From the NCBI GenBank assembly GCA_003550425.1, contig PUKE01000262.1, forward strand, positions 1 through 41,465: DNA of 41,465 bases, given 5' to 3'. Both the position numbers and the translations under genes were made by a program. The DNA is from Nitriliruptoria bacterium. Its GTDB lineage: Bacteria > Actinomycetota > Nitriliruptoria > Euzebyales > Egibacteraceae. Under the pieces are notes generated by a model. The model saw only the letters and a list, made by a program, of their open reading frames with translations, did no database searches and was not told where the DNA came from. Below are positions 17,354-33,422 of this stretch, piece after piece (position 1 is the stretch's first letter; each line of letters starts with the position of its first letter).

Positions 17354-18541
17354 CGCGACGCGGTCGTGTGCGAAGCCGTTCGAACCGCGGTCGGTCGGCG
17401 CGGTGGCCGCCTCGCCGGGTGGCACCCCACCGACCTGCTCGGCGCGGTCCTGGCGGGCGTGCTCGAGCGCGCCGGGGTGGATCCCGGCCACGTCGACGAC
17501 GTGCAGGCCGGCTGCGTGACGCAGGCCGGCGAGCAGGCCGCCAACGTCGCGCGCAACGCCTGGCTCGCCGCGGGCCTGCCCGAGACGGTGCCGGCGACCA
17601 CCGTCGACCGCCAGTGCGGGTCCTCGCAGCAGGCGCTGCACAACGCGGCCGCTGCGGTGGCCTCCGGGGCCCAGGACGTCGTCATCGCCGCCGGCGTCGA
17701 GTCGATGACCCGCGCGCCGATGGGCAGCGCCGCCGGCCAGGCCGACCCCTTCGGCGCGACGCTGCGCGCCCGCTACCCCGAGGGCGTGGCCGCGCAGGGC
17801 CTGAGCGCCGAGCGCATCGCGGCGCGCTGGGGGCTCACCCGAGCGGCGTGCGACGCGCTGGCGCTGGCGTCCCATCGCCGTGCCGTCGACGCGACCGATC
17901 GCGGGGACCTCGCGGGCGAGATCCTGGCGGTGACCGGCACCGATCGCGACGGGGCCGCCGTGGTCCACGCCACCGACGAGGGGATCCGCCGCGACACGTC
18001 GGCGTCGGCGCTGGCCGCGCTGCCCCCCGCGTTTCGCACCGACGCGCTGGCCTCCGCGCACCCGGGGCTCCCGTGGCTCGTCACGGCCGGCAACGCCTCA
18101 CAGGTCTCCGACGGTGCCGCGGCCCTGCTGGTGACCGCCCCGGAGGTGGCGCAGCGACTCGGCCTGACCCCGCGCTGGCGCATCCGGGCCACGACGGTGG
18201 TGGGCAGCGATCCGGTCCTGATGCTGACCGGCCCGATCCCTGCGACGCGCCGGCTGCTCGAGCGCGCCGGTCTCGCCCTCGACGACCTCGACCACATCGA
18301 GATCAACGAGGCCTTCGCCCCGGTGGTGCTGGCCTGGCAGACCGAGCTCGGCGCCGACCCCGAGCGGGTCAATCCGTTGGGCGGCGCGATCGCGCTGGGC
18401 CACCCGCTCGGCGCCTACGGGGCACGGCTGGCCACGACCCTCGCCCATGCGCTCGAGCGCACCGGCGGGCGGCTGGGGCTGCAGGTGATGTGCGAGGGCG
18501 GCGGCATGGCCAACGCCACCCTGCTGGAGCGCCTGGGCTGA
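17351..18541 (+). CDS. Thiolase (acetyl-CoA C-acyltransferase)
   Basis: This enzyme joins or cleaves acyl-CoA units (beta-oxidation or acetoacetyl-CoA formation). Counting from the ATC at 17351 it has 396 residues, and the nucleophilic cysteine in VDRQCGSSQQAL falls at position 89, the textbook position. The start region reads RDAVVCEAVRTAVGRRGG, as in relatives that begin Met-Arg-Asp/Glu-Ala. Other motifs are GVESMTRAPMG, NEAFAPVVLAW (general Asn/Glu loop), GHPLGAYGARL (catalytic His) and the C-terminal CEGGGMANATLLERL (second Cys). The alternative GTG start at 17366 gives 391 residues. Substrate length cannot be read from sequence. The zinc-ribbon membrane gene follows after 23 bp, probably cotranscribed. 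Confidence 0.92.
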   Translation: MRDAVVCEAVRTAVGRRGGRLAGWHPTDLLGAVLAGVLERAGVDPGHVDDVQAGCVTQAGEQAANVARNAWLAAGLPETVPATTVDRQCGSSQQALHNAAAAVASGAQDVVIAAGVESMTRAPMGSAAGQADPFGATLRARYPEGVAAQGLSAERIAARWGLTRAACDALALASHRRAVDATDRGDLAGEILAVTGTDRDGAAVVHATDEGIRRDTSASALAALPPAFRTDALASAHPGLPWLVTAGNASQVSDGAAALLVTAPEVAQRLGLTPRWRIRATTVVGSDPVLMLTGPIPATRRLLERAGLALDDLDHIEINEAFAPVVLAWQTELGADPERVNPLGGAIALGHPLGAYGARLATTLAHALERTGGRLGLQVMCEGGGMANATLLERLG

Positions 18542-19058: not shown

Positions 19059-19280
19059 TCAGCGCCACTGGCTCAGGGTCACGAGCCCCCCGGCCATCGC
19101 GGCGAACCCGGCGGCGATGAGCCACGCGGTCGCGGCGGCGAGGTAGGCCACCACGACGACGATCGCCCCGACGCCGATCAGGCTGACGCCGGTGATCGGC
19201 ACCCAGCGAGGGCTGGGCTCGGGCTTGGCAGGCTCGGGCGGCACGTAGGTGTCGCGCTTCGAGCGGCGCTTCTTCGCCAT
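19059..19280 (-). CDS. crgA: Cell division protein CrgA
   Basis: A 73-residue protein with the CrgA plan: a basic N-terminus (MAKKRRSKRDTYVPPEP) followed by two membrane helices (about 27-47 and 50-69) and a short C-terminal Gln-Trp-Arg. CrgA recruits and stabilises septal peptidoglycan factors (FtsI, PbpA partners) and restrains FtsZ ring formation in Streptomyces. The ATG is preceded by a GGAGGAGGCC ribosome-binding site. It is divergent from the sortase and convergent with the preceding gene, the same location as in mycobacteria and streptomycetes. A possible -10, TACCAT, lies on the minus strand at 19323-19318. Confidence 0.92.
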   Translation of the reverse strand: MAKKRRSKRDTYVPPEPAKPEPSPRWVPITGVSLIGVGAIVVVVAYLAAATAWLIAAGFAAMAGGLVTLSQWR

Positions 19281-19371: not shown

Positions 19372-20151
19372 ATGCGCAGTCCCACGCCTCCCCCGCCTGG
19401 CGCCCGCTCGCGCGGCGCACGCCGTTGGCGCGCGAGGCTCCTCATGGCGCTCGGCGGGCTGCTGGTGTCGGCGGGGGCCGTGGTCGGGCTCTACGTCCTC
19501 TACGCCCTGGTGCTGACCGGACAGGAGACCGCCGCGGCCCAGGCCGAGCTGCGGGAGTCGTGGGTCGACCCGGAGGCCGTCGAGGCCAGCGACGAGGACG
19601 ATGGCGACGCCCAGCGCGCGACGGACCGCGACGACGTGCACGACGAGCAGGACGCCGAGGACGAGCAGGACGCCGAGGACGACGACGGCGCCGAGGATGC
19701 CGAGGCGCCGCAGGACGGCGTGGCGCTGCTCGAGGTGCTCACCGCGGACGGCGAGCCCGGGCCGCTCGACGACGACCCCTACGTGGTGGTCGAGGGCGTG
19801 ACCTACGACGACCTCACGCGCGGCCCGGGCCACTATCCCCACAGCGCGCAGCCCGGCGAGGAGGGCAACGTCGCGGTGGCCGGCCATCGCACCACCTACG
19901 GGTCGCCCTTCTTCCACCTGGACGCGGTGAGCGAGGGCGATCGGATCGAGGTCACCGACCGGGAGGGGCAGGTGCACCGCTACGAGGTGCGCGAGCAGCG
20001 CGTGGTGCAGCCGAGTGACACCTGGGTGGTCGAGGATGACCCCCTCGACACCGGCGAGCCGACGCTCACGCTGACGACCTGCCATCCGCGGTTCTCGGCG
20101 GCCGAGCGCCTGATCGTCTTCGCCGAGCTGGTCGAGACCGAGGGAGGTTGA
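19372..20151 (+). CDS. srtE: Class E sortase
   Basis: A 259-residue transpeptidase that would anchor LAxTG-type secreted proteins to peptidoglycan. A basic N-terminus precedes one membrane helix (about 24-49). The linker at 65-115 is extremely acidic, with DEQDAEDEQDAEDDDGAED. The catalytic domain (about 135-258) has His172 in AGHRTTYGSPFFHLD, Cys237 in LTLTTCHPRFSAAERLI and Arg246 in the same segment, forming the His-Cys-Arg triad. No substrate gene with a sorting signal is visible in the window. It heads a three-gene unit: the small membrane gene starts 4 bp after its stop and the third gene overlaps that one. Class E assignment rests on the actinobacterial context and overall pattern. Confidence 0.93.
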   Translation: MRSPTPPPPGARSRGARRWRARLLMALGGLLVSAGAVVGLYVLYALVLTGQETAAAQAELRESWVDPEAVEASDEDDGDAQRATDRDDVHDEQDAEDEQDAEDDDGAEDAEAPQDGVALLEVLTADGEPGPLDDDPYVVVEGVTYDDLTRGPGHYPHSAQPGEEGNVAVAGHRTTYGSPFFHLDAVSEGDRIEVTDREGQVHRYEVREQRVVQPSDTWVVEDDPLDTGEPTLTLTTCHPRFSAAERLIVFAELVETEGG

Positions 20152-20155
20152 GGCG

Positions 20156-20362
20156 ATGGTGGTGCGGCGCATGGTGCTGATCGGCGGGCTCGGCCTCGCG
20201 GGGGTCGTGGTCCTGTGGCTGCTGTTCACGCTGGTGTTCCCCTGGGTGGACCGTCAGCTCAACGACCCGGCGATGGGCGCCCTGCTGCTCGCGGCGCCAC
20301 TGCTGGCGCCGCGTCGCCTGGCCCCGTGGCCTGCGAGCCGCGACGGGCGGGTGCAGCGGTGA
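20156..20362 (+). CDS. Small hydrophobic protein of the sortase operon
   Basis: A 68-residue protein of unknown function. It has one clear membrane helix (LIGGLGLAGVVVLWLLFTLVF, about 8-28), a short polar loop with DRQLNDPAMG, and a second moderately hydrophobic stretch (ALLLAAPLLAP), ending in a basic tail. It starts four bases after the sortase stop, with GGAGG inside the sortase's last codons serving as ribosome-binding site, and its stop overlaps the GTG of the next gene (GTGA). Conserved spacing and codon use support a real gene. Confidence 0.65.
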   Translation: MVVRRMVLIGGLGLAGVVVLWLLFTLVFPWVDRQLNDPAMGALLLAAPLLAPRRLAPWPASRDGRVQR

Positions 20363-22050
20363 CGAGCGAGGGCGTGCGCATGGGCGCCGACCGTGAGGGC
20401 GAGGGCAGCGGCACCGTCCGCTCGGGGCGGGCCGGGCGCGGGGGCGCCCCAGAGGCGGCCTCCGAGGGGCTCCCGCGTCCCGGGAGGCTCCCGCGTCCCT
20501 GGCAGCGGGCCTATCCGCGGCACGTCCCCACGACCTGGGCCTACCCCGACGTCGCGGTCACGCGGCTGCTGGATGACGCGGCCGCGGACTTCCCTGGTCG
20601 TCCGGCGTGGCGGTGCGGTCGCACCACGCGCACCTTCCGCGAGCTGCTCGATGCCGTGGATCGCTTCGCGGTGGCCCTCGGCGCGCTCGGCATCGGCCCC
20701 GGCGAGCGGGTCGGGGTGCTGTTGCCGGCCGAGCCGGCGCACCTCGTGACCCTCCTGGCCGCCTGGCGGTGCGGGGCCAGCGTCGTCCCGGTGGATCCCG
20801 ACGCCGCGCCGGCCGAGATGGCCTCTGCCCTGTCCGGCGAGGGCTGCCGGGTGGTGGTCTGCGCCGAGCGGGGCTATCCGGCGCTGGCGGCGCTCAAGGG
20901 CAGGCTGCCGGGGGTGCGCCACGTCGTCGCCGCCGCGGAGGGCGAGGGCCTCGCGGCGCCAGCGGCCGTGGTGGCCCGGGCGCGCGCCTGGCGGCAGCGA
21001 CGCCGGCTCGCACGGGATAGCGTGCACCGGATGGACCACCTCATCACCGCGGCGCTGCCGGCGCCGCCGGAGGGGCTGGCCACGTCCGAGGCCGAGGCCC
21101 TCGTGCTGCGACGCGGCACCGCCCGCGTCGCGCTGTCCCACGGCAACCTCGTGGCCAGCGCGATCCAGGTGCGCCTGTGGCTCCCTGACGTGCGGGCCGG
21201 CGACGAGCGCGTCCTCGCGGCCGAGCCCCTCCACGACGCCCTCGGGGTGGTGGGCGGCGTGGCGCTCGCGCTGCTGACCGCGGCGAGCCTCGAGCTGCCC
21301 GGCAGCACCGCGCCGACGAGCCTGGTGCGCGCAGCGCGGCGCGGCCGTCCGACGCTGGCGGTGGGCGGCCCCGCCGCCCTGGAGGTCCTCGCCGAGGCCG
21401 AGGAGGGCGTCGACCTCGCGGCCCTGCGCGCGGGGCTGTGCGTCGCGGGCCACCCCCGCACAGCGGGGCCTGGCGGGGCGGAGGCCAGCGCCGCGCAGGG
21501 CGCCGCGCAAGGCCAGGCGCAGGACGAGCCGACCGAGGGCACGGCCGGCGTGGACGCGGCGGGCGTGGACGCGGCGGGCGTGGACGCGGCGGGCGTGGAC
21601 GCGGTCGAGGCCGTGGCCCGCGCGCTGTCGACGCGCACCGGCGGCCGCGTGCGCACCGCCTGGGGGGTGCCCGCCGCGCCGGTCGTGACCGCCAACCCGC
21701 TCTACGGGCGCGCCGAGGCGGGCACGCTCGGCGTGCCGCTGCCCGACACCGTCTGCACGCTGCGCGATCCCTTCGATCCCGGCGATCCCGCGGACCCCGG
21801 TCATCCTGCGGACCCCGGCGAGCCCGCTGACCCGGCCGCCTCGCCCCCGTCGCGGGGGCGCGTGGCGGTCGCCGGCCCGCAGGTGGCGCGGTGGCCCACG
21901 GCCGCGGGCGCCGAGGAGGCCACCGGGGCCGGCGCGTGGCTCGTCACCGGGCTCGTCGCGTCGCTGGACGAGCGCGGCTACCTCGCCCCGACCGCGGGCG
22001 CGCAGAGGCCCTCGCACAGCGAGGGCGCGGAGCACCGGCGAGGGCCCTAG
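20359..22050 (+). CDS. Degenerate AMP-binding (acyl-CoA synthetase-like) protein
   Basis: A 563-residue protein of the ANL adenylating-enzyme superfamily, closest in style to long-chain acyl-CoA ligases. After a 45-residue unstructured start, the fold is clear: YPDVAVTRLLDDAAADFPGR, then RTFRELLDAVDRFAVALGAL, IGPGERVGVLLPAEPAHLVT and WRCGASVVPVDPDAAPAEMA. But the catalytic motifs are lost: the TSGTTGxPKG loop is replaced by VLRRGTARVALSHGN (249-263), the YGxTE motif by AWGVPAAPVV, the TGD motif by AWLVTGLVASLDERGYL (526-542), and the C-terminal lid domain with its catalytic Lys is absent. Two repeat insertions (GVDAA x4 at 397-416; Asp-Pro-rich near 473-495) interrupt it. The frame and codon use are intact over its whole length, suggesting a maintained pseudoenzyme rather than a decaying gene. 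ATG at 20380 is an alternative start. Confidence 0.8.
   Translation: MTSEGVRMGADREGEGSGTVRSGRAGRGGAPEAASEGLPRPGRLPRPWQRAYPRHVPTTWAYPDVAVTRLLDDAAADFPGRPAWRCGRTTRTFRELLDAVDRFAVALGALGIGPGERVGVLLPAEPAHLVTLLAAWRCGASVVPVDPDAAPAEMASALSGEGCRVVVCAERGYPALAALKGRLPGVRHVVAAAEGEGLAAPAAVVARARAWRQRRRLARDSVHRMDHLITAALPAPPEGLATSEAEALVLRRGTARVALSHGNLVASAIQVRLWLPDVRAGDERVLAAEPLHDALGVVGGVALALLTAASLELPGSTAPTSLVRAARRGRPTLAVGGPAALEVLAEAEEGVDLAALRAGLCVAGHPRTAGPGGAEASAAQGAAQGQAQDEPTEGTAGVDAAGVDAAGVDAAGVDAVEAVARALSTRTGGRVRTAWGVPAAPVVTANPLYGRAEAGTLGVPLPDTVCTLRDPFDPGDPADPGHPADPGEPADPAASPPSRGRVAVAGPQVARWPTAAGAEEATGAGAWLVTGLVASLDERGYLAPTAGAQRPSHSEGAEHRRGP
21547..21606 (+). repeat. Four tandem 15-bp repeats in the AMP-binding gene
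   Basis: The unit GGCGTGGACGCGGCG occurs four times head to tail (the last ends in GTC), encoding four Gly-Val-Asp-Ala-Ala steps. The reading frame is kept because the unit is a multiple of three. Such a tract is prone to length change by slippage. Confidence 0.9.
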
Positions 22051-22784
22051 GGCTCGGAGCGTCCCACGATGATGGTGGCGTCGGCGCGGTAGGCCAGGCG
22101 CGTGCCCACGGTGCGCACGCCCAGCCGGTCCAATGGCAGGTCCTCGCTGGCGCCCAGGGCCAGCAGGCCGCTGGCGTCGGCGGCCTCGACGAGCAGGTTG
22201 ACCACGTCGCGGCCGACCTCCACGCGGGCCTCGGCGTCGGGCATGAGCTCGGCGCACAGGTACTGGGCGTTCTCGACCTCGCTCTCGTCGTCGACGCCGC
22301 GCAGCGCCTGCACGTCCAGGTCGAAGGCGAGGCCCAGCCGCTGGCCCACCGCGGCGGCGAGGGGGGCGTTGGGGCCCGGCCCCACGCCGACGGTCACCGA
22401 CTCCAGGCGCGCGAGGCTGCCCGGGCGCACCAGCAGCACGTCGCAGGGGGGCGCCTCCAGCACCTGGCGGGCGAGGTCCTGCTCGCCGCCGACCATCCGC
22501 GGCTGCCACTCGACCACCAGCAGGCCGGCGGTGACCTCGGCGGCCAGCCGGTCGACGCCGGCGGCGTCGACCGGGGCGTCGCCGTCCCACAGGCGCACCT
22601 CCTTGTCGTGCGCCTCGGCCAGGGCCTCGATGGTGGAGGCCACGTCCTCGCCCTGCTCGCCGTGCAGCGCCGGGCCGTGGGCATGCACGACGCGCGCCTC
22701 GAGGCTGGCCAGCGCGATGCTGACCATCAGCGGGGCGCTGTGGATCGTGCGATACAGCACGACGGTCGTGCGTCCTGGGGTCAT
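22047..22784 (-). CDS. Tandem universal-stress-protein-like protein
   Basis: A 245-residue soluble protein that looks like two USP-type alpha/beta halves. Half one (about 5-121) ends in LARQVLEAPPCDVLLVRPG; half two (about 127-242) ends in LALGASEDLPLDRLGVRTVG followed by ADATIIVGR. These mirror the final strand and glycine-rich phosphate loop of UspA domains, although the classical GxxG(9x)GS spacing is only partly kept, so ATP binding is uncertain. Its stop overlaps the end of the AMP-binding gene by four bases on the opposite strand, and it is divergent from pabA across 99 bp. Role in stress response is a family-level guess; no regulatory site was recognised. Confidence 0.62.
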   Translation of the reverse strand: MTPGRTTVVLYRTIHSAPLMVSIALASLEARVVHAHGPALHGEQGEDVASTIEALAEAHDKEVRLWDGDAPVDAAGVDRLAAEVTAGLLVVEWQPRMVGGEQDLARQVLEAPPCDVLLVRPGSLARLESVTVGVGPGPNAPLAAAVGQRLGLAFDLDVQALRGVDDESEVENAQYLCAELMPDAEARVEVGRDVVNLLVEAADASGLLALGASEDLPLDRLGVRTVGTRLAYRADATIIVGRSEP

Positions 22785-22871
22785 CTGCCCGCCTCGCGTG
22801 GTCCGGCGCCCGGGCGGTGAGCACGTGGGCGGGGATCGTAGCGCCACCGGCCACCGCCAGGGGACCCCCGG

Positions 22872-22877
22872 TACGCT
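22872..22877 (+). promoter_or_regulatory. -10 element placed for a leaderless pabA transcript
   Basis: TACGCT lies so that transcription starting seven bases downstream would begin exactly at the ATG at 22884. There is no ribosome-binding site before that ATG. This supports the ATG over an in-frame GTG at 22878. Confidence 0.4.
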
Positions 22878-22883
22878 GTGGGC

Positions 22884-23486
22884 ATGGCCGGTCCACGGGT
22901 GCTGCTCATCGACAACTACGACAGCTTCACCTACAACCTCGCCCAGCAGCTCGGGGAGCTCGGGGCGGCGGTCGAGGTGGTGCGCAACGACGCGACGACC
23001 GCCCCGGAGGTGGCGGCCTGGGGGGCCGACGCGGTGGTCATCTCGCCGGGGCCGGGAGGGCCCGCGGACGCGGGGATCTCCAACGACGTGATCCGCGAGC
23101 TCGGTGGGCGCACCCCGCTGCTCGGCGTGTGCCTGGGCCACCAGTGCATCGCCGAGGTCCACGGGGGCTCGGTGGTGCGCGCCGACGAGCCGCGCCACGG
23201 CAAGGCCAGCGACATCCACCACGACGGCCAGGGCGTGTTCGCCGGCCTGGACGACCCCTTCCCGGCCACCCGCTACCACTCGCTGGTGCTCGACCCGCCG
23301 ACCTGCCCCGAGGAGCTCGTGGTCTCCGCGCGGACCGCGGACGGCATCATCATGGGCCTGCGCCACCGCACCCATCCGGTCGAGGGGGTGCAGTTCCACC
23401 CCGAGTCGGTGCTGACCGACCTCGGCAAGCGGCTGCTCGGCAACTTCCTCGAGCGGCTCGTCCCGGTCACCGGGGAGCGCGCGTGA
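22884..23486 (+). CDS. pabA: Aminodeoxychorismate/anthranilate synthase glutaminase subunit
   Basis: A 200-residue class I glutamine amidotransferase that supplies ammonia to a chorismate-using partner for folate (PabA) or tryptophan (TrpG). It opens RVLLIDNYDSFTYNLAQQL, has the oxyanion loop SPGPGGPADAG, the nucleophile Cys83 in GVCLGHQCIAEV and the His172/Glu174 pair in VEGVQFHPESVLT, plus RYHSLVLD. Its place just before the pknB region is that of the mycobacterial/streptomycete pabA/trpG homologue; no chorismate partner is in the window, so the folate versus tryptophan role is open. The stop overlaps the next gene (GTGA). Confidence 0.93.
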   Translation: MAGPRVLLIDNYDSFTYNLAQQLGELGAAVEVVRNDATTAPEVAAWGADAVVISPGPGGPADAGISNDVIRELGGRTPLLGVCLGHQCIAEVHGGSVVRADEPRHGKASDIHHDGQGVFAGLDDPFPATRYHSLVLDPPTCPEELVVSARTADGIIMGLRHRTHPVEGVQFHPESVLTDLGKRLLGNFLERLVPVTGERA

Positions 23487-27362: not shown

Positions 27363-28742
27363 ATGGAGGCGCTCGAGCTCGCTCGCTGGCAGTTCGGGAT
27401 CACGACCGTCTACCACTTCCTGTTCGTGCCGCTGACCATCGGGCTCGCCCCGCTGGTGGCGATCATGCAGACCGTGGCCTACCGCACCGATGACGAGCGG
27501 TGGTGGCGGCTGACGAAGCTGTTCGGCAAGCTCCTGCTGATCAACTTCGCGATGGGCGTGGTCACCGGCATCGTGCAGGAGTTCCAGTTCGGCATGAACT
27601 GGTCGAGCTACTCGCGCTTCGTCGGCGACATCTTCGGGGCCCCGCTGGCCATCGAGGGCCTGGCCGCGTTCTTCCTCGAGTCCACCTTCCTCGGGCTGTG
27701 GATCTTCGGGTGGCGCCGCATGCCGCGCGGGCTGCACCTGGCCACGATCTGGCTGGTGGCGCTGGGGACCTGGGCCTCGGCCTACTTCATCCTGGCCGCG
27801 AACTCGTGGATGCAGAACCCCGTGGGCTACGCCATCAACGAGGAGGTTGGGCGCGCGGAGCTGCAGAGCATCGGCGCGGTGCTCACCAACGCCAACCTCG
27901 GGTGGATGTTCGCCCACACGATCGTGGCCTCGCTGGCCACCGCCGGCTTCTTCGTGCTGGCCGTGGCCGCCTACCACATGCTCAAGGGCAACGACGTCTC
28001 GGTGTTCCGTGGCACCGCCGCGATCGGGCTGATCACCGCCCTGGGGGCCACCGGCATCCTCGGCTTCACCGGCCACGAGCAGGCGCAGCTCAAGACCGAC
28101 CTGCAGCCCATGAAGATCGCCGCCGCCGAGGCGCAGTACGAGACCGAGTCGCCGGCGTCGTGGTCGGTGTTCGCGATCGGGTCGCTGGACGGCGAGGAGC
28201 TGCTGTTCGACGTCCGCGTGCCCTACCTGCTGTCGGTGCTGGCGACCAACTCCCTGGACGGCGAGGTCGAGGGCATCAACGACCTGCAGTCGCAGGCCGT
28301 GGCCGAGCACGGCGAGGGCGACTACACCCCCAACATCCCCGTGGCCTACTGGACCTTCCGGGTGATGATCGGGCTGGCGATGCTGATGCTCGCCTTCGGC
28401 GCCTACGGCCTGTGGCAGCTGCGGCGCGGGCGCCTGGAGTCCTCGACGCGCTACCTGCGCTACGCGATCCCCATGGCGGTCACGCCCTTCGTGGCCTCCT
28501 CGGCCGGGTGGATCTTCACCGAGATGGGCCGCCAGCCGTGGGTGGTCCAGGACGTGCTGCTGACCGCCGACGGCGTGAGCCCCTCGGTCTCGCTCGGCGA
28601 GGTCGCGCTGTCGCTGGCCGGCTACACCGCGATCTACACGATCCTGCTGGTGGTCAACGTCGGGCTGATCCTCAAGTACGCCCGGCAAGGGCTCGGGGAG
28701 GAGCGCAGCCCCGAGGACGTCGGCGACGCGCTGCAGTACTAG
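27363..28742 (+). CDS. cydA: Cytochrome bd oxidase subunit I
   Basis: A 459-residue polytopic subunit that carries haems b558, b595 and d and oxidises quinol while reducing oxygen. His18 (TTVYHFLFVPLTIG) matches the haem b595/d-side ligand, His185 (GWMFAHTIVAS) and Met335 (FRVMIG) match the b558 ligands, and GRQPWVVQDVL is the conserved late motif. The quinol-binding Q-loop is of the short type (about 245-325), as common in Gram-positive bacteria. It starts a four-gene cyd operon; cydB follows after 21 bp. High-affinity bd oxidases support growth at low oxygen or under respiratory stress. Confidence 0.97.
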   Translation: MEALELARWQFGITTVYHFLFVPLTIGLAPLVAIMQTVAYRTDDERWWRLTKLFGKLLLINFAMGVVTGIVQEFQFGMNWSSYSRFVGDIFGAPLAIEGLAAFFLESTFLGLWIFGWRRMPRGLHLATIWLVALGTWASAYFILAANSWMQNPVGYAINEEVGRAELQSIGAVLTNANLGWMFAHTIVASLATAGFFVLAVAAYHMLKGNDVSVFRGTAAIGLITALGATGILGFTGHEQAQLKTDLQPMKIAAAEAQYETESPASWSVFAIGSLDGEELLFDVRVPYLLSVLATNSLDGEVEGINDLQSQAVAEHGEGDYTPNIPVAYWTFRVMIGLAMLMLAFGAYGLWQLRRGRLESSTRYLRYAIPMAVTPFVASSAGWIFTEMGRQPWVVQDVLLTADGVSPSVSLGEVALSLAGYTAIYTILLVVNVGLILKYARQGLGEERSPEDVGDALQY

Positions 28743-28763
28743 GACCCGGGAGGACCCCTCGCC

Positions 28764-29831
28764 ATGGACTTCATCGACCTGCCCGCGCTCTGGTTCCTCC
28801 TGATCGCGTTCCTGTTCCTCGGGTACTTCTTCCTCGAGGGCTTCGACTTCGGCGTGGGGATGCTCATGCCGGCGGTCAGCCGCGACGACGTGGACCGCCG
28901 CGTGGTCATCAACACCATCGGCCCGGTCTGGGACGCCAACGAGGTCTGGCTGATCGTCGCCGGCGGCGCGATGTTCGCGGCCTTCCCGGAGTGGTACGCG
29001 ACGCTGTTCAGCGCCTACTACCTGCCGCTGCTGCTGATCCTGCTGGCGCTGATCGCCCGCGGGGTCGCCTTCGAGTACCGCAGCAAGCGCGACGACCCGA
29101 CCTGGCGCGCCCGCTGGGACCAGGCCATCTTCTGGGGCTCGGCGCTGCCAGCGCTGCTGTGGGGCGTGGCCTTCGCCGGCATCCTCAACGGCATCCCGAT
29201 CGACGCCGACCGCGAGTTCGTCGGCGGCTTCCTGGACCTGCTGCACCCCTACGCCCTGCTGGGCGGGCTCATGACCCTGTCGCTGTTCCTGCTCCACGGC
29301 GGGGGGTTCCTCACCCTCAAGACCTCCGGGGACCTCGTGGAGCGGGCGCGCGCCTACGCCCGGCGCCTGTGGTGGCCCGCCGCGCTGACCACGGCGGGCT
29401 TCCTGACCTGGAGCTACGTCAACGCCTTGACCCAGGACGACTTCGGCGTGGTGCCCGACCTGGTGCCGATCCTGGCGCTGGTGTCCATCGCGAGCGTGTC
29501 GTGGCTGCTGCGCGAGGGGCGCGACGGGTTCGCGTTCCTGGCCACCGGCGCGACGATCCTGCTGACCTTCGGCACGATCTTCGCCAACCTGTTCCCGCGG
29601 GTCATGGTCTCCTCGACCGACCCGGCCTTCGACCTGACGATCCGCAACGCCAGCTCGACCGACTACACCCTCACGATCATGACGTGGGTGGCGCTGGCGC
29701 TGACGCCGGTGGTGCTGGCCTACCAGGCCTGGAGCTACTGGGTGTTCCGCAACCGCGTCAGCCGCGACCGGTTCGTGGGCGCGAGCACCGGCGGCGACGA
29801 CGGCGAGGCCGGCGAGGACGCCTCCGGGTGA
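28764..29831 (+). CDS. cydB: Cytochrome bd oxidase subunit II
   Basis: A 355-residue integral membrane protein that completes the bd oxidase heterodimer. Family features are the N-terminal LPALWFLLIAFLFLGYFFLE and GFDFGVGMLMP, the GPVWDANEVWLIVAGGAMFA motif (52-71), the FPEWYATLFSAYYLPLLLIL helix and WGSALPALLWGVAFA. About eight membrane helices are visible, with a polar acidic C-terminus (GGDDGEAGEDASG). It follows cydA with a CGGGAGGA ribosome-binding site and precedes cydD by 34 bp. Confidence 0.96.
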   Translation: MDFIDLPALWFLLIAFLFLGYFFLEGFDFGVGMLMPAVSRDDVDRRVVINTIGPVWDANEVWLIVAGGAMFAAFPEWYATLFSAYYLPLLLILLALIARGVAFEYRSKRDDPTWRARWDQAIFWGSALPALLWGVAFAGILNGIPIDADREFVGGFLDLLHPYALLGGLMTLSLFLLHGGGFLTLKTSGDLVERARAYARRLWWPAALTTAGFLTWSYVNALTQDDFGVVPDLVPILALVSIASVSWLLREGRDGFAFLATGATILLTFGTIFANLFPRVMVSSTDPAFDLTIRNASSTDYTLTIMTWVALALTPVVLAYQAWSYWVFRNRVSRDRFVGASTGGDDGEAGEDASG

Positions 29832-29865
29832 GGCGCCGACCGGGCCCGACCCAGGCCGAGCGCCG

Positions 29866-31689
29866 GTGACCGCGACGCCCGTCCCCGTCACGGGCCGACG
29901 ACGCGGCCCACCGGTCGACCCGCGGCTGCTGCGGCTCGCCCGCAGCGCCCGGGCCTTCCTGGCGCTCACGGTCGCGCTGGGGCTCGTCACCGCCGTCACC
30001 GTCATCGCCCAGGCCGAGCTGCTGGCCACCGTGGTCGCCGGGGCCTTCGCCGACGGGCGCGACCTGGCGGCGCTGACCACGCCGCTGCTGGCCCTGCTCG
30101 CGGTGGTGGCCGTGCGGGCGCTGATCGCCTGGGGCACCGAGGTCGCCGCCCACCGGTCGGCGGCCGGGGTGCGCGGCGAGCTGCGCCGGCGCCTGCTGCG
30201 CAAGGTCGTGGCCGACGGGCCGGTCGCGCGCAGCGGCGACCAGCGCGGCGCCCTCGCCGTGTCGGCCACCCGCGGGCTCGAGGCGCTGGACACCTACTTC
30301 TCGCGCTACCTGCCCCAGCTCGCCCTGGCGGTGCTCGTGCCGATCCTCGCGATCGCGTGGATCTGGCCCCGTGACCTGCTCACCGTGGGGCTGCTGGCCG
30401 TCACGCTGCCGGTCATCCCGCTGTTCATGGCGCTGATCGGCAAGATGGCCAACCGCCACGTCAACCGCCAGTGGCACGCGCTGCGCCAGCTCGGCGGGCA
30501 CTTCGTCGACGTGCTGTCGGGGCTGACGACCCTCAAGGCCGTCGGCGCCGCGCGGCGCCAGCGCGAGCGCGTGGAGCACATCACCGACCGCTTCCGCGCC
30601 TCGACGATGCGCACCCTGCGGGTGGCGTTCCTCTCGGCCGGGTGGCTCGAGCTCATGGCGATGATCGGCACCGCGATGGTCGCGGTGGGCATCGGCCTGC
30701 GGCTGGTCGAGGGCACCCTGGACCTCCAGACGGGGCTGGCGATCCTCATCCTCGTGCCCGAGGTCTACCTGCCGGTGCGCAACCTCGGACAGCAGTTCCA
30801 CGCCGCCCGCGAGGGCATGGAGTCCGCCGCCGAGCTGCTCGACGTGCTCGAGGCCGACGACCAGGGCGCCGCGGCCGAGCCCTTCGCCGCGCCTGCCCCG
30901 ACGCGGGTGGCGGGCGGCGACGCCATCCGCTGCCAGGCGGTGGCCTTCGCCTATCCCGGGCGCGCCGAGGGCGCGCTGCACGGGCTGGACCTGACCATCG
31001 CGCCCGGGGAGCGCCTGGCGCTCATCGGCCCGACCGGCGCGGGCAAGTCCACGCTGCTGGCGCTCCTGCTGGGCTTCGCCGCCCCGGACGAGGGCGCGAT
31101 CACCGTCCCCGCCGGCCCGCGGGGCGCCCCCACGCCGCTGACCGACCTCGACCTGTCGGCCTGGCGCGCCGGCATCGCCTGGGTGCCCCAGCGCCCCCAC
31201 TTGATGGCCGGGTCGCTGGCCGACAACGTCCGCCTCGCCCGCCCCGATGCGACCCAGGACGAGGTCGCCGCGGCCGGCTCCCGGGCCGGGCTCGATGGGC
31301 TCGTCGCCGAGCTGCCGCAGGGCTGGGCGACCGACGTTGGCGAGGACGGGGGCCGACTGTCGGTGGGCCAGCGCCGTCGCGTGGCCCTGGCCCGCGCCTG
31401 GCTGCGGGAGGCCACGCTGGTGCTGCTCGACGAGCCCACCGCTGGCCTTGACCCCGCCAGCGAGGCCCACGTGGTGGCGGCGGTCGGGGCGCTGGCCCGC
31501 GACCGCACCGTCGTGACGGTCACCCACCGCCTGGCGCTGGCCGAGCGCGCCGACCGCGTCGCCGTCGTCGCCGACGGGCGGGTGGCCCAGAGCGGCCCGC
31601 CCGAGGCGCTCGCGCGTCGCGAGGGCCCCTACCGCGCGATCGCCCAGGCCGACCCCGAGGCGCTGCGCGGGCTGGGGTGGGTGACATGA
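29866..31689 (+). CDS. cydD: CydD-type ABC exporter half, cytochrome bd assembly
   Basis: A 607-residue fusion of a six-helix membrane domain and an ATPase. CydDC exports cysteine/glutathione reductants (or haem-related ligands) needed to mature cytochrome bd. The membrane part (about 20-320) contains the family-like HFVDVLSGLTTLKAVGAARR and EVYLPVRNLGQQFHAAREGM. The ATPase has Walker A GPTGAGKS from Gly388, signature LSVGQRRRVALARAW and Walker B LVLLDEPTAGLD (about 516-527). The start is GTG at 29866 by homology; no strong ribosome-binding site. It overlaps cydC by four bases (ATGA). CydD rather than CydC is assigned from operon order. Confidence 0.93.
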   Translation: MTATPVPVTGRRRGPPVDPRLLRLARSARAFLALTVALGLVTAVTVIAQAELLATVVAGAFADGRDLAALTTPLLALLAVVAVRALIAWGTEVAAHRSAAGVRGELRRRLLRKVVADGPVARSGDQRGALAVSATRGLEALDTYFSRYLPQLALAVLVPILAIAWIWPRDLLTVGLLAVTLPVIPLFMALIGKMANRHVNRQWHALRQLGGHFVDVLSGLTTLKAVGAARRQRERVEHITDRFRASTMRTLRVAFLSAGWLELMAMIGTAMVAVGIGLRLVEGTLDLQTGLAILILVPEVYLPVRNLGQQFHAAREGMESAAELLDVLEADDQGAAAEPFAAPAPTRVAGGDAIRCQAVAFAYPGRAEGALHGLDLTIAPGERLALIGPTGAGKSTLLALLLGFAAPDEGAITVPAGPRGAPTPLTDLDLSAWRAGIAWVPQRPHLMAGSLADNVRLARPDATQDEVAAAGSRAGLDGLVAELPQGWATDVGEDGGRLSVGQRRRVALARAWLREATLVLLDEPTAGLDPASEAHVVAAVGALARDRTVVTVTHRLALAERADRVAVVADGRVAQSGPPEALARREGPYRAIAQADPEALRGLGWVT

Positions 31690-33422
31690 GCGACCTCGCG
31701 GTCCTGCGTCGCTTGGCCGGGCTCGCCGCGCCGCTGCGCGGGCGCTTCGCCCTCGCGACCCTGCTCGGGGTGGGCACCCTGGCGGCCAGCATCGGGCTGA
31801 TGGCCTCCAGCGGCCTGCTGATCTCCTGGGCGTCGCTGCAGCCGCCGCTGCTGGACCTGATGGTGGCGATCACCGCCGTGCGTGCCCTCGGCATCTCCCG
31901 GGCGGTGCTGCGCTACCTCGAGCGCCTCGCCAGCCACGACGCGGCGCTGCGGCTGCTCGGGCGCGTGCGGGCCCGGGTCGTGGCGCGGGTCGAGGCGCTG
32001 GCTCCCGCCGGCCTGGAGGGCTGGCGGCGCGGCGACCTCGTCTCGCGGCTGGTCGACGACGTCGAGTCGCTGCAGACGGTCTACGTCCGCGCGCTGGCCC
32101 CGCCCCTGGTGGCCCTCGGCGCGATCGCGGTGGCGCTGGCGATCGTGGTGCCCCTCGACCCCCGCGCCGGCGCGGTGCTGGCCGCCGGGCTGCTCGGCGG
32201 CGGCGCGGCGGTCAGCCTGCTGGCCCTGCGCCTGGGGCGCGCGGCGGGCCGCCGCTTGGCGCAGGCGCGCGGGTCGCTGGCCACCGCGGTCGACGACGTG
32301 CTCGGCGGCGCCGGCGAGCTGCTGCTCTACGACCGCGTCGAGGACCACCTCGCCCGCGTCGACGCCGCCGACGCGGTCCTCGCCGACCTCCAGCGCCGCG
32401 AGGCCTGGCGTGCCGGGCTGATCGCCGGGGCCAGCGCCGCGCTGACCGGCGTGACCGTCGTGGCCGTGGCCGCCGTGGCGGTGCCGGCCGTGACCGCGGG
32501 GACGCTGCCCGGGGTGTTCCTGGCCGTGGTGGTGCTGACGGCGCTGGCGGCCTTCGAGGCGATCACCCCGCTGCCCCAGGCCGCCCAGCAGCTCTCCGAC
32601 GCGCTCGGCGCGGCCCGCCGGGTGTTCGCGGTGCTCGACGCCCCCGACCCCGTCGCCGACCCCGCCGAGCCGCGGCCCCGCCCCGAGGGCAGGGTGCTCG
32701 CGCTGGAGGGCGCCACGCTGCGCTACGACGGCGCGGACGCGCCGGCGCTGGTCGACGTCGACCTGACGGTGCGCCGCGGCGAGCGGGTGGCGCTGCTCGG
32801 CCCCAGCGGTGCGGGCAAGACGACCGTCGCCGAGGCGCTGACGCGCCTGCGCCCCCTGGCGTCGGGGCGCGCGACCCTCGACGGCGTCGACCTGTCGGCG
32901 TTGGCCGGCGACGACGTTCGCGAGGTCGTCGGGCTCGTCGAGCAGCAGCCGCACCTGTTCGCCACGACGCTGCGGGAGAACCTGCGGCTGGCCGACCGCG
33001 AGGCCACCGACGCCGACCTGCACGCCGTCCTCGCGCGCGTGCGCCTGGACCGCTGGGTGGCCGGGCTGCCCGACGGGCTCGACACCGAGGTCGGTCCCGG
33101 CGGCGAGCAGGTGTCGGGCGGCCAGCGCCAGCGGCTCGCGCTGGCCCGGCAGCTGCTGCGCGACCCGCCGCTGCTGCTGCTGGACGAGCCCACCGCCGAC
33201 GTGGACCGCGTCACCGCCGCGGCGCTGCGCCGCGAGCTGCTGGACGCCGCCGCTGGGCGTGGCGTGCTGCTCATCACCCACGAGGCGCCGGGGCCCGGCG
33301 AGGTCGACCGGGTGGTGACGCTGGACGGAGGGCGCGTGGTCGCCGAGGCCGACGGCGCGCAGCCCAGCGCCGCCGCCCGCGGCCTGGCGGGGGAGGAGCG
33401 CGCCGCGCCGGCGACGCAGTAG
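31686..33422 (+). CDS. cydC: CydC-type ABC exporter half, cytochrome bd assembly
   Basis: This 578-residue ABC half-transporter should form a heterodimer with the preceding gene product. The membrane domain includes AVLRYLERLASHDAALRLLG, a CydC-like element, and ITPLPQAAQQLSDALGAARR close to the ATPase. The nucleotide-binding domain shows Walker A GPSGAGKTT from Gly372, signature VSGGQRQRLALARQ and Walker B LLLLDEPTADVD, then the switch His in LLITHE. The ATG overlaps the cydD stop; a start nine bases earlier is possible but less likely. It is followed immediately by the GntR gene, which suggests a single transcript. Confidence 0.93.
   Translation: MSDLAVLRRLAGLAAPLRGRFALATLLGVGTLAASIGLMASSGLLISWASLQPPLLDLMVAITAVRALGISRAVLRYLERLASHDAALRLLGRVRARVVARVEALAPAGLEGWRRGDLVSRLVDDVESLQTVYVRALAPPLVALGAIAVALAIVVPLDPRAGAVLAAGLLGGGAAVSLLALRLGRAAGRRLAQARGSLATAVDDVLGGAGELLLYDRVEDHLARVDAADAVLADLQRREAWRAGLIAGASAALTGVTVVAVAAVAVPAVTAGTLPGVFLAVVVLTALAAFEAITPLPQAAQQLSDALGAARRVFAVLDAPDPVADPAEPRPRPEGRVLALEGATLRYDGADAPALVDVDLTVRRGERVALLGPSGAGKTTVAEALTRLRPLASGRATLDGVDLSALAGDDVREVVGLVEQQPHLFATTLRENLRLADREATDADLHAVLARVRLDRWVAGLPDGLDTEVGPGGEQVSGGQRQRLALARQLLRDPPLLLLDEPTADVDRVTAAALRRELLDAAAGRGVLLITHEAPGPGEVDRVVTLDGGRVVAEADGAQPSAAARGLAGEERAAPATQ

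Follow-up and report, generated by a model that had tools for sequence, protein, structure and literature searches.

The gene at positions 20359..22050 on the forward strand of the window (the whole 41,465-nucleotide stretch analyzed here) encodes a FadD-type protein of 563 residues that we read, with a probability of roughly 60%, as a non-catalytic pseudo-subunit kept for its N-terminal dimer face. The main and new result behind this reading is an inversion of constraint, which in the sequences compared appears as catalysis released from selection while the dimer face is kept. The frame contains zero internal stops over its 563 codons, and its GC content by codon position (0.84/0.63/0.94) is coding-like at such GC, in agreement with an earlier note on this DNA that had described a frame open over 1.7 kb with ordinary codon use. 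The GTG start at 20359 shares the four bases GTGA with the stop of a small upstream ORF, and since an overlap of the same kind occurs at the locus in G001, G002, and G018, a start at this position is plausible. An 880-residue gene on the opposite strand (20254-22896) was considered and rejected, as homology, codon-position pattern, and synteny all favor the forward frame. Two low-complexity expansions on which the earlier note was silent lie within the gene: a 15-bp tandem repeat in 4.2 copies (21542..21604, forward strand) that encodes (AGVDA)n, is absent from other relatives, and has low pLDDT, and an 18-bp tandem repeat in 3.1 copies (21778..21833, forward strand) that encodes a (DPADPG-like)n stretch.

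Judged by its sequence, the protein is a member of the ANL/AMP-binding superfamily, yet it fails every functional criterion tested for an acyl-CoA synthetase: the P-loop [ST]G[TS]TGxPKG with its lysine, A5 YGxTE (TAWGVP instead), A7 TGD (TGL instead), the lid with the A10 lysine, and the NF004114 model. Membership is supported by a Pfam match to PF00501 (AMP-binding) that scores 120 bits where the cut-off is 29.9 (E = 1.4e-34), mainly over residues 64-184 of the 555-residue form that was scanned. NF004114 is the best NCBIfam model, at 146.5 bits about one-fifth of its cut-off of 766, a strict cut-off that is also missed by the intact orthologue G006 (598.8) and by a paralogue on C85. When intact syntenic orthologues are taken as the reference, their P-loop YTGGTTGTSKGVMLTH corresponds in the window protein to RRG(gap)TARVALSH, a shortened remnant of the phosphate-binding (A3) loop without TGGTTGxxKG (21103..21132, forward strand). 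The A4 sequence FFHAYG has become LHDALG, RTAWGVP (21652..21672, forward strand) replaces REGYGLTE so that the A5 motif is lost, and the A7 region, WLVTGLVASLDERG (21937..21978, forward strand), reads WLVTGLV in place of WFLTGDV, with leucine for the TGD aspartate. The protein ends soon afterwards, some 20 unrelated residues taking the place of the lid of about 110 residues, and it has neither catalytic lysine (P-loop, A10). The Pfam search found no AMP-binding_C (PF13193) lid match in the window protein, while intact G006 has one. These comparisons confirm the earlier claim that the P-loop, YGxTE, the TGD aspartate, and the C-terminal lid are absent or replaced. The possibility that a recent frameshift or stop cut off the lid and left its remnant downstream was rejected because no lid remnant was found anywhere in the window, the best match (E = 10) lying far from the gene.

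An AlphaFold2 single-chain model built from an input of 28 sequences predicts that the protein folds as an ANL N-terminal domain (pLDDT 83.7, pTM 0.85). Most of the body exceeds 90, and confidence drops in the repeat insert (385-402) and at both ends of the chain, in the N-terminal tail and near the C-terminus. The best Foldseek matches (E ~1e-25) are feruloyl-CoA synthetase (8wev), anthranilate-CoA ligase (4wv3), and ttLC-FACS (1ult). The earlier note had recognized an acyl-CoA synthetase fold and had proposed structure prediction as a check; the predicted ANL N-terminal fold, with ligases as its top matches, and the 120-bit PF00501 match bear that recognition out.

Where constraint now lies was measured as retention, defined as the fraction kept in degenerate orthologues of the residues that are invariant in six intact enzymes of the class. 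The degenerates keep 0.23 of 26 catalytic residues against a background of 0.57, while retention reaches 0.92 in TRLLDDAAxDFP and 0.93 in FQxRLWxPDxxAGxE. As these two segments were first noticed in the same data, a fair test needs a residue list from outside, and one is available in the 44 interface residues through which the N-terminal domains of M. tuberculosis FadD13 dimerize (PMC8253482), a list independent of this dataset, though the conserved segments were seen before it. The FadD13 sequence used matches PDB 3r44; it is a distant homologue and was mapped with N-termini trimmed, six rows not being trimmable by motif. Across the 27 degenerates, retention is 0.86 at positions matching the FadD13 interface, 0.51 at other positions, and 0.23 in active-site motifs, and the interface value is not equalled when the mask is shifted circularly (0 of 377 shifts). 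In an alternative alignment in which the FadD13 N-terminus is misplaced, the interface enrichment has p 2e-5. All nine lineage subsets rank the interface first, other positions second, and the active site last (0-26 of the 385 shifts reach as high a value), with weaker contrast in small ones (0.75 at the interface versus 0.55 and 9/385 shifts for the window protein with G001; 26/385 for G017), and the ranking is reversed in seven active outgroup enzymes (0.65 interface, 0.79 other, 0.96 active site).

Four retained stretches of the window protein, all on the forward strand, map to this face: segment 1, TRLLDDAAADFP (20560..20595), aligns with FadD13 interface residues 6-17; segment 2, IQVRLWLPDVRAGDE (21163..21207), comprising a helix end and the loop after the P-loop, with 186-197; GVPLPDT (21730..21750) with 327-333; and AGPQV (21871..21885) with 354-356. 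The conserved residues may be important for folding too, which is a caveat on the dimer-face reading. The earlier note had suggested a ligand-binding or scaffolding protein, and because retention within the N-terminal domain is lowest in the ATP/acyl-site motifs and highest at the dimer face, a protein-interaction role is favored and ligand binding is disfavored. If the protein were a sensor of fatty acid, acyl-AMP, or nucleotide, the predicted retention of the N-terminal domain fold would be expected, but the P-loop, the A4 aromatic/His, and A5 around the ATP/acyl site are the least retained elements, and we consider such a sensor improbable. We give very little credence to a re-purposed enzyme that performs different chemistry through migrated residues. 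Nothing speaks for it directly; the invariant R137, R357, R432, and Y449 could sit along the walls of a new site, but the protein has no lid, from which half of an ANL active site comes, and a conserved new catalytic cluster was not recognized.

The gene evolves under purifying selection, neutrality being strongly rejected by pairwise codon tests (GY94 F3x4 likelihood, omega free versus omega = 1). Close pseudoenzyme pairs have omega of 0.05 (G029-G024), 0.07 (G051-G053), 0.12 (G051-G052), and 0.09 (G002-G018, partial), and pseudoenzyme pairs with dS of 0.3-1.1 give 2dlnL of 102-368 against omega = 1; intact pairs have omega of 0.03. The window gene compared with that of G001, a Nitriliruptoria sediment MAG congeneric with the window organism, gives omega of 0.07 and 2dlnL = 177 against omega = 1 at a saturated dS (4.75), and the dS estimates for G030-G034 and G026-G028 diverge to meaningless values. 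Neutral decay is rejected under these models. A recently inactivated, early-stage pseudogene, its frame not yet closed since stop codons seldom arise at ~78% GC, would fit the presence of intact orthologues at the same locus, the low-complexity expansions and fast evolution of the window lineage, and the lack of the gene in some relatives. Against this stand the rejection of omega = 1 in the window pair and in all pseudoenzyme pairs tested, differences by codon position of 0.29/0.29/0.46 for window-G001 and 0.06/0.06/0.28 for G029-G024, and 27 degenerate orthologues that are every one open and specifically retain one surface, so that recent inactivation appears highly implausible. The earlier proposal of a gene that is kept and not drifting neutrally holds for every pair tested, and the confident predicted fold, the rejection of neutrality, and the wide occurrence of orthologues with like losses together support a kept pseudoenzyme.

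The genomes compared are mostly MAGs, and the species tree comes from one gene (gyrA). Six class members (G004, G006, G011, G019, G054, and G060) keep the full motifs, as do the enzymes of seven outgroup genomes, while 27 non-redundant orthologues, the window protein included, lack both lysines in frames that are all open (P-loop Lys 0/27, A4 His 0/27, A10 Lys 0/27). Partial states also occur: G008 has an altered P-loop and Arg for the A10 Lys with the lid present, and in G005 the P-loop is present and the protein stops before the lid. All class sequences form one clade in the gene tree with outgroups (100/99), so the class copies are orthologues. The gyrA tree intersperses intact with degenerate copies, places the window organism and G001 as sister to the part-decayed G008 (100/100), and requires about five changes between intact and degenerate, at least four changes of the intact label being forced, with G005 and G008 scored as intact in the count. 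The gene tree clusters most degenerate copies together, and an AU test of the window sequence, G001, and G008 as one clade gave p = 0.056. Our own reading is that catalysis was probably lost repeatedly and that long-branch attraction affects the gene tree; the gyrA tree implies many losses and the gene tree few, and an ancient duplication with differential loss may apply instead of repeated loss.

The earlier description of a lineage-specific branch needs amending, for the degenerates span most of the class and are not a small single branch. Orthologues with intact motifs, which the earlier note took as a sign of recent decay, do occur (the six in the class); recent decay is not indicated here, because G001, of the same genus, has the same loss, and long-standing degenerates under purifying selection occur in other lineages. 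Some copies carry additional sequence. Intact G006 (L041), G019 (L035), and G011 (L034) have long Lys/Ala-rich, histone-H1-like N-terminal tails, for example PAAKKAAPAVKK and GKKAASKKAAGKK; codon-position GC favors coding of the tails in G006 and G019, and they possibly bind nucleic acid or polyphosphate. In four degenerate copies from one family (L043, L044, L049, and L051 in G029, G024, G026, and G028), open extensions of 430-670 codons, with a high content of Pro, Thr, and acidic residues, lie upstream of the FadD domain.

The order crgA, sortase E, small membrane ORF, FadD homologue, pabA is conserved in most of 61 genomes of Nitriliruptoria, an actinobacterial class of soils and salt lakes that includes the window organism, and a FadD homologue lies between sortase and pabA in most of the 60 relatives searched. 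In the window these neighbors are the cell-division protein CrgA (19059..19280, reverse strand; PF06781), a class E sortase (19372..20151, forward; Pfam, NCBIfam, and synteny), a small predicted membrane ORF of 68 residues (20156..20362, forward; synteny) whose end overlaps the pseudoenzyme start, and the pabA/trpG glutamine amidotransferase (22878..23486, forward; Pfam, NCBIfam, and synteny). The 68-residue ORF has no Pfam family, and several relatives have an ORF resembling it in the equivalent position. The wider cluster runs gyrB-gyrA-DUF3566-tRNA-crgA-sortase E-pabA, and farther along come genes for a PASTA kinase, a penicillin-binding protein, and a PP2C phosphatase. FadD genes also adjoin pabA in other parts of the phylum (among others in G083, G069, G099, G097, G072, G086, and G108), and since the P-loop is intact in those where it was displayed, an active enzyme at the pabA locus is the ancestral state. 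Sortase directly adjoins pabA in G003 and G016, and several other relatives yielded no copy at the pabA locus, so the gene can be lost and is not essential throughout the class. The neighboring sortase E, small membrane protein, and CrgA suggest an envelope role for the pseudoenzyme, location alone being a weak guide.

Other genes of the window deserve mention in their own right. A conserved 243-residue protein (22047-22778, reverse strand; 46-81% identity in relatives), convergent with the pseudoenzyme gene, has no Pfam or NCBIfam match and by eye resembles universal stress proteins. A thiolase (17366-18541, forward; PF00108/PF02803) between a tRNA pair and crgA is a second acyl-CoA gene in the neighborhood, and cydA-like and cydB-like genes, named from sequence inspection, are followed by two ABC exporter genes (PF00005/PF00664) at 27363-33422 (forward).

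The proposed ancestor is an active long-chain acyl-CoA synthetase of FadD type whose gene had long held its place between sortase/crgA and pabA. The computations show that the residues for adenylation and thioesterification are gone, predict an ANL N-terminal domain fold, and find the constraint, in the window protein and its degenerate orthologues, withdrawn from the active site and concentrated at positions equivalent to the FadD13 dimer face. We infer a non-catalytic subunit that may assemble through the dimer face, either with itself into a homodimeric scaffold or with another protein, and that would be co-produced with the products of the genes immediately before it, the small membrane protein and sortase E; its translational coupling to the 68-residue ORF through GTGA is probable from the sequence. 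The genome encodes active-looking ANL enzymes at other loci: one intact FadD, whose lid was checked by HMM, and three proteins named from sequence inspection as AcsA-like, FadD15-like, and MenE-like. These can perform acyl activation, which thus has other owners.

Inactive subunits control active ones in other enzyme families, and the pseudoenzyme could likewise bind and control an active paralogue such as the intact FadD on G000:C85. The best-kept part being the dimer face and the existence of that paralogue, with PF00501 and a lid domain, would both suit such a regulatory heterodimer, but by eye the corresponding segment of the C85 protein lacks the RLWxPDxxxGxE signature, so a matched interface is not apparent, and we regard this arrangement as rather unlikely. 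A tentative extension of the preferred reading, a kept non-catalytic subunit, is that the FadD at the crgA/sortase/pabA locus had a prior structural role for its dimer face and that several lineages independently dropped the chemistry, leaving an envelope or division scaffold component. This is doubtful as matters stand; if true, it would amount to a convergent, clade-wide enzyme-to-scaffold transition in bacteria.

Pseudoenzymes are well known as a class. In the open-access literature, to which the search was confined, we found no earlier report of this pseudoenzyme and no direct precedent for a pseudo-acyl-CoA-synthetase. A single position-conserved gene that within one class ranges from intact (G006, G011) through partial (G008, G005) to dead is a natural experiment, and the inverted conservation profile points to a surface worth testing. 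For annotation, an "AMP-binding protein" at this Nitriliruptoria locus needs a motif check before it is counted as fatty-acid activation.

Among known systems, the FadD ligases of the PRK05605/PRK06710 group (ANL) share fold and ancestry with the window protein, and the intact syntenic orthologue in G006 scores 599-640 bits against the models of this group; the window protein, at 146.5 bits versus the NF004114 cut-off of 766, differs in lacking the core catalytic motifs and the lid. FadD13 (3r44) and T. thermophilus ttLC-FACS (1ult), which both form N-terminal dimers (PMC8253482), have the N-terminal fold in common with the window family, which keeps the positions matching the FadD13 interface, but they are active and lid-bearing. 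The FadD13 face is basic and membrane-associated, whereas segment 1 of the window family is acidic (LDDAAxDF) where its FadD13 counterpart is basic, so the partner or the mode of assembly may differ from that of FadD13. A more distant likeness is offered by the fungal pseudonucleases Ssd1/Dis3L2, in which catalytic activity disappeared repeatedly and a non-catalytic second function remained constrained (PMC8097288). There too, an orthologous line loses catalysis while something else stays under constraint, although the enzyme family is unrelated and eukaryotic and the second function is RNA binding and cytokinesis.
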